Of a stretch of DNA of 64,000 nt, positions 29,089-31,568 are shown piece after piece; the first letter of the stretch is position 1; every line of letters starts with the position of its first letter. The stretch lies in assembly GCF_008370255.1 (NCBI RefSeq), contig NZ_SEUI01000001.1, positions 618,897 through 682,896 of the forward strand, written 5' to 3'. The notes beneath the pieces were generated by a model. That model saw only the letters and a program-made list of their open reading frames with translations. It ran no database searches and had not been told where the DNA came from. The translations under genes and the position numbers were made by a program. The DNA is from Pseudoalteromonas sp. FUC4. Lineage in GTDB: Bacteria; Pseudomonadota; Gammaproteobacteria; Enterobacterales; Alteromonadaceae.

Positions 29089-31224
29089 TTATTTTAAACG
29101 AGCAAAAAAGTGGTAATCCTCAGAATTTTTCAGCTTTTGTGCAAAGCTCATTCCTAAGGTTTTAAGCTGCTGCGCATTATTATAAGCACCGATTTTGAGC
29201 TTTAATTCACTCACGGCTTGCGCTGTTGAGCCAATGCTATCTAGTGCTAAAAAGTATAAATAAGCGTATTGCACGTTATTACTCTCAAGTGCCATTGCGT
29301 GTTTAAACGAATCAACCGCAGCGGGTTTGTTACCGCTTCTGATAAGTGCCATACCGTTTGCATAGTGCAGCGACGCAGACGTAGGTACTGCGTTTAAACC
29401 ACTGTTTAACGTGCTTTGCATTTTCGCTGTTTGACCAAGGCGATAATAAATATCGGCTAAATTGACATAACTCGCATCAAAGTAAGGGTCAACGCTAATA
29501 CCTTTTTGTAACGACTTTATAGCACCGTTTATGTCTTGTTTATTAAGCGCGAGCATACTTTGATTAATGTTACCTTCACCGCGCCATGTATTGACGGTAT
29601 TGGCGTGTGCAAGCTCTATAATTGATTGATTAAGCCCGTTTAACTGCGCTGTTGTTTGGCTTAGGTTTTGCGCTGCAGCAACACGCACCGACTTTAATTT
29701 GTCGGTTAATAGTTGCTTGTAGCTTTTTAAGCGCTCTGCTTCGGGGAGTAAAAAGCCCACTTTAGCAATAGCTAAACGAATAAGCGGAAGCGGCGAATTA
29801 ACCCAACTTTTTACTGTGGCATCGTTTAGCTCAGCACCTGAGTTGCCTAGATATGCAATTGCACTGGCACGGTCTATTTCATTTAACGAAAAGTCATTAA
29901 TTAAGCTCATATGTGCATTTTGCGATATCGCTTTTAATGAGCGCAGTTCAAGCATACTGTGCTCGCTTGCACTCAAAGCCGGTGCTTTACCATGCCATTT
30001 TTCAAGTGTGCTTGCTGCCCATTCGTTTGTTTGGCCGTCGTGGCATTGCACACACGCATTGGGTGTATCGTATTTTATTGATATGTCAGGGCGCGGAATT
30101 TTAAAGCTGTGGTCGCGCCTGTCATCAACGCCCATGTATCTGTTGGTTGGCATATGGCAGTTAACACATTGCGCCCCGGTTGATTGTTCTTTATGGCGAT
30201 GATGCTCTGGTTTGTTATATTCGCTGGCACTGTGGCACTGTAAGCACAGCCCATTCGTTTTTGTTTTAACTTTCATGGTGTGTTTATCGTGGCAGTCAAC
30301 ACAGTTAACCCCGGCGTTGTACATTTTACTTTGTGCAAAAGAGCCAAACACATACACTTCTTCTTTAATTTGGCCATCGGCGTGATACAAATTAGGTTCT
30401 AAAAATGAAGGGCTAAATTGGTCTAAAAACGCTTGGCTGTTATCAAAGCCATCAGTCAGCGGGCTTCTAAGCGAGTGACATGCATAACAACCTTGCATAA
30501 AGCTGTTATCGCGGGGCTCACCTTGCCACGTGGCAATGGTGTCATCACCGATTATTTTCCACTGCGACATATTGGTGGGGCTTGTTTCAGGCGATTTAGT
30601 CACTTTTTTAGTTTTGTGTTCGTCAGTAATCTCACTGTGGCACGATTTACAACCCACATTTATATTCGAGAAGTGCGTATCAAAGCTTTCTTTTTCTGTA
30701 ATGTAATTACGCTTTAAATTATCTGAATGGCAATCGGCGCACATGCCGTTCCAGTTTTGCAGTGGTTGCAACCAATGGAGGCGGTCGTTGGGTTTTACAT
30801 CCTCGTTAGCGTAGTTAGCATACCAACGCTTTCCGCCTAGTGATTTAGCGCGACTATCCCATGCAAAAGGAAATACTTGGTATTTGCCTTTTTCAACTTC
30901 AATTAAATACTGCTGCAATGGGTCAAAGCCAAATACATAACTTACGGTGTACGTTTTTTTGGTACCTTGCTCGGTCAAATCAATTAAGAAGGCATCTTTT
31001 TCTTTATAAAAAACGGCTTTTTGAGAAAAATGGGTCGCGGTTATATTATTAAAATCACCAAGCACGGTATCTTTATTGGCTAAAGCCATTGAGTTTGCAT
31101 GGTCTGACTGCTTCCAATCGAGGGTTTGTTGTTGATGACAAGACTGGCATTCCTCGTTTGCAATCGCTGAAAAACAACTGCATAAAAAAAGAATACTAAA
31201 TAAGTGTTTTATTATATTTATCAT
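29089..31224 (-). CDS. Octahaem c-type cytochrome with C-terminal TPR domain
   Basis: ATG at 31224 is preceded by AGGTGG at normal spacing; the longer frame begins with TTG. The 711-residue periplasmic protein has a signal peptide (SAIA-NEE) and eight CXXCH haem-binding motifs in its N-terminal 400 residues: CQSCH, CADCH, CKSCH, CYACH, CVDCH, CLQCH, CVNCH, CVQCH. The C-terminal half holds HEAT/TPR-like helices (GAIKSLQKGISVDPYFDASYVNLADIYYRLGQ). It resembles cytochrome c554-type multihaem proteins fused to TPRs. It shares a divergent regulatory region containing the operator-like motif with a sulfatase, so it belongs to the locus, yet no redox step outside the cytoplasm is known for carrageenan. 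Substrate unknown. Confidence 0.8.
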   Translation of the reverse strand: MINIIKHLFSILFLCSCFSAIANEECQSCHQQQTLDWKQSDHANSMALANKDTVLGDFNNITATHFSQKAVFYKEKDAFLIDLTEQGTKKTYTVSYVFGFDPLQQYLIEVEKGKYQVFPFAWDSRAKSLGGKRWYANYANEDVKPNDRLHWLQPLQNWNGMCADCHSDNLKRNYITEKESFDTHFSNINVGCKSCHSEITDEHKTKKVTKSPETSPTNMSQWKIIGDDTIATWQGEPRDNSFMQGCYACHSLRSPLTDGFDNSQAFLDQFSPSFLEPNLYHADGQIKEEVYVFGSFAQSKMYNAGVNCVDCHDKHTMKVKTKTNGLCLQCHSASEYNKPEHHRHKEQSTGAQCVNCHMPTNRYMGVDDRRDHSFKIPRPDISIKYDTPNACVQCHDGQTNEWAASTLEKWHGKAPALSASEHSMLELRSLKAISQNAHMSLINDFSLNEIDRASAIAYLGNSGAELNDATVKSWVNSPLPLIRLAIAKVGFLLPEAERLKSYKQLLTDKLKSVRVAAAQNLSQTTAQLNGLNQSIIELAHANTVNTWRGEGNINQSMLALNKQDINGAIKSLQKGISVDPYFDASYVNLADIYYRLGQTAKMQSTLNSGLNAVPTSASLHYANGMALIRSGNKPAAVDSFKHAMALESNNVQYAYLYFLALDSIGSTAQAVSELKLKIGAYNNAQQLKTLGMSFAQKLKNSEDYHFFARLK

Positions 31225-31568
31225 TTTAGAATCCACCTTTAATAGCACACCAATGCATGCTTAAAACTAAATAACAGGCCGCAGCTAAGCACACAGTAAA
31301 TAGCCTTTGTCTTTAAACTGACACTGTTATTAGGCTTAAGTAATAGTGAGAAATTGAAAAATTAATTTTAAAATATCATACATCATATGTTTGCAATATT
31401 GTTATGTTTTGTTTAGTGTAGCGATATTGTGATTTATAAACGCACTATTTACAACTCAACCATTAAATTAACTAGCCGTAATAGTCTAATATAACCAATA
31501 TGTTAGCTATGGTGTAATTAATATTTTTTAGCTATGTGCTTAACTATTATATTAAATAGGAAACTGTG
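31225..31568. other. Divergent regulatory region (cytochrome / sulfatase)
   Basis: 344 AT-rich bases between divergent genes. The operator-like site at 31378-31392 lies near the middle, 153 bases from the cytochrome start and 176 bases from the sulfatase start. No gene is seen. Confidence 0.6.
31378..31392. promoter_or_regulatory. Operator-like palindrome, site 5
   Basis: ATACATCATATGTTT, one mismatch from consensus at position 2, in the shared upstream region of the cytochrome and sulfatase genes. Confidence 0.65.

Follow-up and report, generated by a model that had tools for sequence, protein, structure and literature searches.

Introduction

Type I sulfatases require formylglycine, which is made by a dedicated maturase. 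Here we describe an octahaem c-type cytochrome with HEAT-like and TPR repeats, encoded beside an S1 sulfatase gene in a 64,000-nucleotide stretch of the Pseudoalteromonas sp. FUC4 genome (contig NZ_SEUI01000001.1, positions 618,897 to 682,896; hereafter the window). We consider the case evenly balanced that this protein acts in trans as a periplasmic sulfatase-maturation factor. Somewhat more tentatively, we propose that it represents a third class of sulfatase-maturing protein, an octahaem c-type cytochrome-HEAT/TPR protein that makes formylglycine in the periplasm after Sec export and replaces the two established maturases, FGE and anSME.

The radical SAM sulfatase maturase anSME (TIGR03942) takes two electrons from its target residue without needing oxygen. 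FGE (SUMF1; PF03781) is an aerobic copper enzyme, and passages of PMC6189696 name these two as the only established formylglycine-making maturases. The cytochrome would do the same job as both on Cys-type sulfatases, and its chemistry, like that of anSME, would be a two-electron, O2-independent oxidation. Unlike FGE, it is a haem c protein, apparently exported, and gave no PF03781 match in a Pfam scan; unlike anSME, it gave no radical SAM or SPASM match in Pfam and NCBIfam scans.

The closest described proteins by fold are multihaem cytochromes. In the octahaem sulfite reductase MccA (PDB 4rkm), the active haem has a long-spaced CX15CH motif and copper-binding cysteines, while the five-haem nitrite reductase NrfA has an active-site haem bound through CXXCK. 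OcwA, the nonahaem cytochrome of Thermincola potens (PDB 6i5b), has six bis-His haems, one His-Met haem and two open haems, has a beta domain in common with MccA, reduces nitrite, and both reduces and oxidises hydroxylamine, according to parts of PMC6703420. Judged against that account, the window protein comes close to OcwA in ligand count, and its predicted model shares with OcwA the superfamily fold and the beta domain between haems 1 and 2, but the three-helix bundle of OcwA gives way here to HEAT and TPR repeats. Eight haems and the beta domain between haems 1 and 2 are likewise common to MccA and the window protein, whereas CX15CH is not (all eight motifs are plain CXXCH, which also sets the protein apart from NrfA) and the copper cysteines have no conserved counterpart in its family. 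Its context is also that of sulfatases rather than of respiration.

Sections of PMC6923384 describe carrageenan-degrading Pseudoalteromonas as growing on carrageenan with the aid of Cys-type sulfatases, and report that marine sulfatases were co-expressed with a recombinant FGE (Rv0712). Yet neither known maturase was detected in the carriers of this locus that were searched, a gap that a haem-based maturase, if real, would explain. It would also represent new chemistry for a c-type cytochrome and offer a tool for producing active marine sulfatases. This newness concerns what the protein is proposed to do and depends wholly on that proposal; by its predicted fold, the protein itself belongs to the known NrfA/c554/MccA/OcwA multihaem superfamily. 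Our search of the open-access literature, which did not extend to bioRxiv, found no paper in which sulfatase maturation is tied to a cytochrome or a haem protein. A first-pass annotation of the window, made by a model from the letters alone, had remarked that carrageenan breakdown as published calls for no periplasmic electron transfer. The published pathway indeed makes no mention of the cytochrome, and the word "cytochrome" is absent from the main texts of PMC6923384, PMC6262041, PMC5698469 and PMC6952198 (word search).

Architecture, conservation and predicted fold

The eight CXXCH motifs and the TPR tail recognised in the first-pass annotation are both present. The motifs span residues 26-395 of the 711-residue protein, and Pfam matches above cut-off were obtained to Cytochrome_C7, Cytochrome_C554, Paired_CXXCH and TPR. 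That description had passed over a HEAT-like stretch lying between the haem part and the TPR part (Table 1), and its end coordinate, 31392, includes upstream sequence that holds an operator copy. The N-terminus resembles a signal peptide by eye, and the protein is apparently exported.

A pattern search gave at least 592 matches in genome contigs, and at least 583 of them were confirmed as relatives of the cytochrome. By record title, the best 79 loci include ones from Gammaproteobacteria, Alphaproteobacteria, Nitrosomonas, Gallionella, Nitrospirota, Planctomycetota, Acidobacteria, Gemmatimonadetes and Verrucomicrobiota; the neighbourhood statistics below refer to these 79 loci and to fetched flanks of up to 10 kb. 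The earlier view of an octahaem cytochrome of the carrageenan regulon therefore needs dividing: the gene is a regulon member by sequence, but its family, with relatives in several phyla, is not specific to carrageenan.

Eight CXXCH motifs were found in 75 of the 77 near-full-length open reading frames from these loci, and seven in the other two. Across 64 aligned sequences, motifs 2-8 were invariant and motif 1 was kept in at least 90%; together with the 75 eight-motif reading frames, this conservation indicates that the eight motifs are not there by chance. The same alignment showed six conserved histidines outside the motifs (H42, H150, H315, H341, H344 and H372; H150 in 95% of sequences, the others in all), four invariant methionines (46, 301, 358 and 364), conserved R253, R369 and D371, and Y280 and Y363 in 98%. 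No cysteine outside the motifs was conserved at 85% or more in the 64 sequences, and hence no conserved copper-site cysteine was seen. Because six histidines and four methionines for eight haems approach the OcwA ligand count, an open, reactive haem is plausible; by position, it would be haem 2, the counterpart of the open haem 2 in OcwA and MccA.

AlphaFold2 gave a whole-chain model with pLDDT 90.5 and pTM 0.88. As a fold search with the whole model was swamped by TPR proteins, the haem domain was also folded alone (pLDDT 82.2, pTM 0.77). The closest match of this model was OcwA (Z 16.5, rmsd 3.8 Å, 317 aligned residues), followed by the undecahaem cytochrome 6qvm (Z 10.1), and by MccA (Z 7.7) and NrfA (Z about 5), both within the range where the fold tool warns of a mere common arrangement. 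Octahaem nitrite reductases scored a Z of about 4, which excludes nothing. A profile match to OcwA (6i5b) had E 1.1e-18, and the model has beta strands at residues 59-136, between haems 1 and 2.

Co-occurrence with sulfatases and rarity of the known maturases

The first-pass annotation had named a lack of sulfatase or carrageenase genes alongside the cytochrome in other species as counting against its reading; for sulfatases the opposite held, with strong co-occurrence across genomes. S1 sulfatases at E<=1e-15 were present in 29 of 107 Pseudoalteromonas genomes, and the cytochrome was present in all 29, at full length in 28 and as fragments in G017. Only G009 and G005 had the cytochrome without such a sulfatase (Fisher's exact test on 29/2/0/76, P = 4e-24, uncorrected for kinship). 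In these counts G005 was taken as inside the 107-genome draw and G083, which has both genes, as outside it. Cytochrome matches in the genus came from 35 of 108 genomes: 31 full length, the fragments of G017, and three weak or partial matches (G004, G085 and G095) that were not counted.

Known maturases are rare in the carriers. An FGE profile (14 FGEs) had no match in 26 cytochrome-bearing Pseudoalteromonas (24 of the 29 plus G005 and G009), and neither FGE nor anSME was found in the window's own genome. PF03781 itself was present in every Pseudoalteromonas searched (36/36 and 10/10), the proteins examined being one of about 687 residues, EgtB-like proteins and others. The FGE cysteine pair, however, occurred in 0 of 41 PF03781 stretches from the genus, a few of whose genome places were counted twice, versus 15 of 15 FGE controls, 14 of them chosen by that very motif. 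We therefore rejected the idea of an FGE hidden among these proteins, for a set outside which lie the PF03781 proteins of, for example, G078, G080 and G082. Whether or not sulfatases are present, the Pseudoalteromonas genomes examined have the roughly 687-residue protein (L139, L138), which has no FGE cysteines but might be taken for FGE in annotation. For anSME, one of 36 Pseudoalteromonas genomes (G003) had a match above cut-off, and none was found in G017.

We observed the same pattern in a draw of 321 gammaproteobacterial genomes at a sulfatase cut-off of E<=1e-50 (the class draw). A sulfatase was found in 64 genomes, the cytochrome in 25 and both in 20, such that 20 of the 25 cytochrome genomes had a sulfatase compared with 44 of the 296 others (odds ratio 22.9, P = 1.6e-11). 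FGE or anSME was present in 1 of the 20 genomes with both genes and in 17 of the 44 sulfatase genomes without the cytochrome (P = 0.004). The single case among the 20 is an FGE (G321), which lies beside a sulfatase; none of the 20 had anSME above cut-off. The 44 comprised 14 genomes with an FGE carrying the cysteine pair, three with anSME and 27 with neither.

As c-type cytochromes are completed in the periplasm, a client of this protein would have to be exported. With a crude hydrophobicity heuristic (peak >=1.6) applied to one or two sulfatases per genome, an export-like stretch was seen in 18 of 20 scored sulfatases from cytochrome genomes without FGE or anSME. The figure was 15 of 26 where a genome had none of the three systems and 5 of 7 where it had FGE or anSME but no cytochrome (entries without the anchor motif, numbering 1, 3 and 1 in these three groups, were left out); neither of the two sulfatases from G321, which has the cytochrome and FGE, had such a stretch. 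Exported Cys-type clients fit a periplasmic maturase that oxidises cysteine.

Sulfatases beside the cytochrome gene

A hidden Markov model search identified a sulfatase in the flanks of 41 of the 79 loci, and within two genes of the cytochrome in 30, replacing a first, motif-based count (26 loci) that was too strict. Sulfatases made up 40 of 288 genes at distance 1-2 versus 18 of 381 at distance 5 or more. When neighbouring proteins were clustered, the sulfatase was the only strongly recurrent family (within two genes in 28 of 79 loci), the next being UnbV and one unnamed family with five loci each. The arylsulfatase gene of Methylosinus trichosporium OB3b has a 4-bp overlap with the cytochrome gene. 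Among annotated plasmid loci (L058, which has no annotation, was left out), many of them on related rhizobial plasmids, 14 of 16 had a sulfatase within two genes. The others are those of Qingshengfaniella and of Alteromonas 76-1, the latter an ulvan plasmid with sulfatase genes according to portions of PMC6431674.

For Pseudoalteromonas with a cytochrome type 36-39% identical, a sulfatase adjoins the gene in 18 of 23 genomes, the broken one of G056 included; G005 has a sulfatase-like gene (CSAMR) 4.4 kb away, and G044, G096, G099 and G063 have none within 10 kb. G057 and G074 have three PF00884 proteins each, of which the genus-wide S1 search recognised one as an S1 sulfatase, the one adjoining the cytochrome (the three of G057 were examined individually). 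G056 (L145) has a broken sulfatase beside an intact cytochrome, with another S1 copy on contig C6. At L099 (P. aurantia 208) and L183, the cytochrome gene lies, by eye, beside galT, galK and a sugar transporter gene.

The sulfatase-like proteins encoded near the cytochrome numbered 72: 68 were Cys-type, two were Thr-type and phosphatase-like, and two were truncated at that site. None was Ser-type, in contrast to anSME, which in the cytochrome-free genome G003 (L182) adjoins a Ser-type sulfatase (SSATR). Outside polysaccharide utilisation loci, the partners often have CTAGR or CTPGR in place of CxPSR at the active site. Such CTAGR/CTPGR sulfatases, often adjoining the cytochrome, were seen at L053, L054, L056, L057 and L142 and in class-draw loci, and in rhizobia and Roseibium (L054, L057, L315, L316, L318, L321 and L322) a HAD-family hydrolase gene separates the arylsulfatase gene from that of the cytochrome.

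Proposed mechanism and evidence against it

In the mechanism we propose, the HEAT/TPR arm would directly take up Cys-type S1 sulfatases exported through Sec and present the active-site cysteine of the C-x-(P/A)-(S/G/T)-R motif to the octahaem domain. There, in the periplasm, the cysteine would be oxidised by two electrons to formylglycine, presumably at haem 2, and the electrons would exit through the haem wire to periplasmic acceptors. We are less confident of formylglycine chemistry at an open haem than of a maturation function as such. Among the roles floated in the first-pass annotation, an unknown oxidative step comes nearest to this proposal, in which what is oxidised is the sulfatase itself, at its active-site cysteine.

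Several observations weigh against a maturase role, the strongest being the 27 of 44 cytochrome-free sulfatase genomes in which no FGE or anSME was detectable. Lack of a known maturase is therefore not unique to cytochrome carriers, and at least three of the 27 (G118, G228 and G271) have CTAGR sulfatases. Either further systems exist or our searches missed members; further sulfatase maturation systems may exist. A "third sulfatase maturation system" was reportedly described by Benjdia et al. (2007) in E. coli; it likewise marks a gap in the known maturases and is probably a protein other than the cytochrome. E. coli can modify sulfatase cysteines by machinery that is still elusive, as parts of PMC6189696 put it.

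Some of the counts are also softer than they appear. The class draw scored only the best three cytochrome and four sulfatase candidates per genome, and so has misses: G347, counted as sulfatase-free, has a CTPSR sulfatase adjoining its cytochrome, plus anSME, and correcting for it gives a sulfatase in 21 of 25 cytochrome genomes and a known maturase in 2 of 21. The genomes are related, such that P values overstate the associations. The remaining PF00884 proteins of cytochrome-free Pseudoalteromonas were called EptA- or LtaS-like from length only.

The cytochrome and sulfatase also come apart in places. In P. aurantia (G009), where galactose genes adjoin the cytochrome, no S1 sulfatase was found, and 38 of the 79 loci have no sulfatase in the fetched flanks. 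For 20 of the 25 class-draw carriers (all but G000, G175, G207, G318 and G392), stretches of 6-20 kb around the cytochrome were fetched, and only 2 of these 20 contained a sulfatase. The two genes are therefore linked more by joint presence in a genome than by proximity, which is how a trans-acting factor would behave. In G200, which has the cytochrome but no detected FGE or anSME, one sulfatase lacks a signal-like stretch. Finally, we know of no precedent for haem chemistry that turns cysteine into formylglycine.

Alternative explanations

The alternative that survives best, although an unlikely one, is that the cytochrome is an accessory redox partner rather than a maturase, which holds the cysteine of the exported sulfatase in its proper redox state, removes sulfide released by another maturase, or repairs the site. 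The tie to Cys-type, mostly exported sulfatases would follow just as well, and the 27 genomes whose sulfatases seem to manage without the cytochrome would suit it. Such a role, however, requires a second, unseen maturase in nearly every carrier genome, and no other family recurs with the cytochrome as the sulfatase does.

A shade less probable still is the idea, raised in the first-pass annotation for a sugar, that the cytochrome accepts electrons from oxidation of a product released by the sulfatase, whether sugar or aryl alcohol. Multihaem cytochromes commonly serve periplasmic oxidations, the gene is found in polysaccharide loci and, in P. aurantia and G005, next to galactose genes, and SDR genes occur in 11 of the 79 loci, within two genes in four. 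Yet no dehydrogenase recurs as an immediate neighbour, and no common product is evident among partners that include carrageenan-type sulfatases, CTAGR/CTPGR arylsulfatases and CSPTR types. The carriers also include methanotroph, rhizobial and Nitrosomonas genomes. Twenty hand-picked flanking proteins from loci without a nearby sulfatase fell into many families, with a few sugar genes, two proteins without a match and no recurrent oxidase or dehydrogenase. A role as electron acceptor for a fixed dehydrogenase was rejected for want of a recurrent immediate partner; with the sulfatase as the sole strongly recurrent neighbour family, sugar oxidation found no support in these data.

We regard as improbable that the protein reduces a nitrogen or sulfur oxyanion, as NrfA, ONR or MccA would, and simply travels with marine gene clusters. 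The superfamily fold and the match to OcwA, with the nitrite and hydroxylamine activities described for that protein in parts of PMC6703420, speak for such an enzyme, as do MccA and NrfA within the limits of the tool's warning range. The window protein, however, has no CXXCK and no conserved extra cysteine for a copper site, and both the sulfatase tie and the missing maturases would be left unexplained. Co-inheritance without any role in sulfatase action, to which the presence of both genes on plasmids and in polysaccharide utilisation loci and the lack of phylogenetic correction in the association tests lend some weight, is the least likely of all, as the tie persists in genomes with one S1 sulfatase and in unlinked pairs across genera, and the known maturases are depleted where the cytochrome is present.

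Regulon and neighbouring genes in the window

The first-pass annotation had placed a divergent S1 sulfatase beside the cytochrome and an operator copy between the two, and both stand where it put them (Table 1). The operator, AACATATGATGTTTG, has nine copies with at most one mismatch in the window, every one between open reading frames (starts at 6896, 10438, 17108, 28906, 31377, 35151, 38638, 44622 and 47724). At up to three mismatches there are 13 matches versus 4.4 expected, a number reached in 0 of 100 shuffles. Because one copy lies between the cytochrome and sulfatase genes, the cytochrome gene is, on the evidence of the DNA, a member of this regulon. This near-palindromic operator is the mark of the carrageenan regulon, whose candidate regulators are encoded by two GntR-family genes at 43069-44609.

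Table 1. Positions in the window of the cytochrome gene, its parts and associated features
Feature	Position	Strand	Remarks
Octahaem cytochrome-HEAT-TPR protein	29089..31224	-	711 aa from ATG, the likelier start; 719 aa from GTG at 31248 (open reading frame 29089-31248)
Haem motif 1 CQSCH, residue 26	31135..31149	-	
Haem motif 2 CADCH, residue 162	30727..30741	-	
Haem motif 3 CKSCH, residue 192	30637..30651	-	
Haem motif 4 CYACH, residue 246	30475..30489	-	
Haem motif 5 CVDCH, residue 308	30289..30303	-	
Haem motif 6 CLQCH, residue 327	30232..30246	-	
Haem motif 7 CVNCH, residue 353	30154..30168	-	
Haem motif 8 CVQCH, residue 391	30040..30054	-	
HEAT-like helical repeats, residues ~438-524	29653..29913	-	Profile match to alphaRep/HEAT chains; helices in predicted model
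TPR arm, residues ~555-690	29155..29562	-	Pfam, profile match, fold search of model
Operator copy between cytochrome and sulfatase	31377..31391	-	
Divergent S1 sulfatase, Cys-type (CGPSR)	31566..32990	+	Signal-peptide-like N-terminus
S1 sulfatase, same regulon, Cys-type (CSPSR)	10531..12072	+	Signal-peptide-like N-terminus
S1 sulfatase, same regulon, Cys-type (CGPSR)	12142..13584	+	Signal-peptide-like N-terminus
TonB-dependent receptor downstream of cytochrome	26203..28752	-	Own operator copy 28906-28920

Around a cytochrome 96.5% identical to that of the window, the gene order is conserved on the P. carrageenovora plasmid NZ_CP027525. Elsewhere in the window, two FG-GAP/UnbV_ASPIC proteins and an SGL-type protein with lipoprotein-like N-termini are encoded at 13541-15481, 24214-26133 and 15589-16698. 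Sections of PMC6923384 propose three conserved propeller proteins as the missing anhydrogalactosidase, and our guess, from fold and place, is that the UnbV_ASPIC pair and the SGL-type protein are perhaps these three. A fixed module of TonB receptor, UnbV/CRTAC1 protein and cytochrome was rejected, with UnbV within two genes in only 5 of the 79 loci. A UnbV1-like gene directly adjoins the cytochrome gene at two Colwellia loci (L078 and L084).

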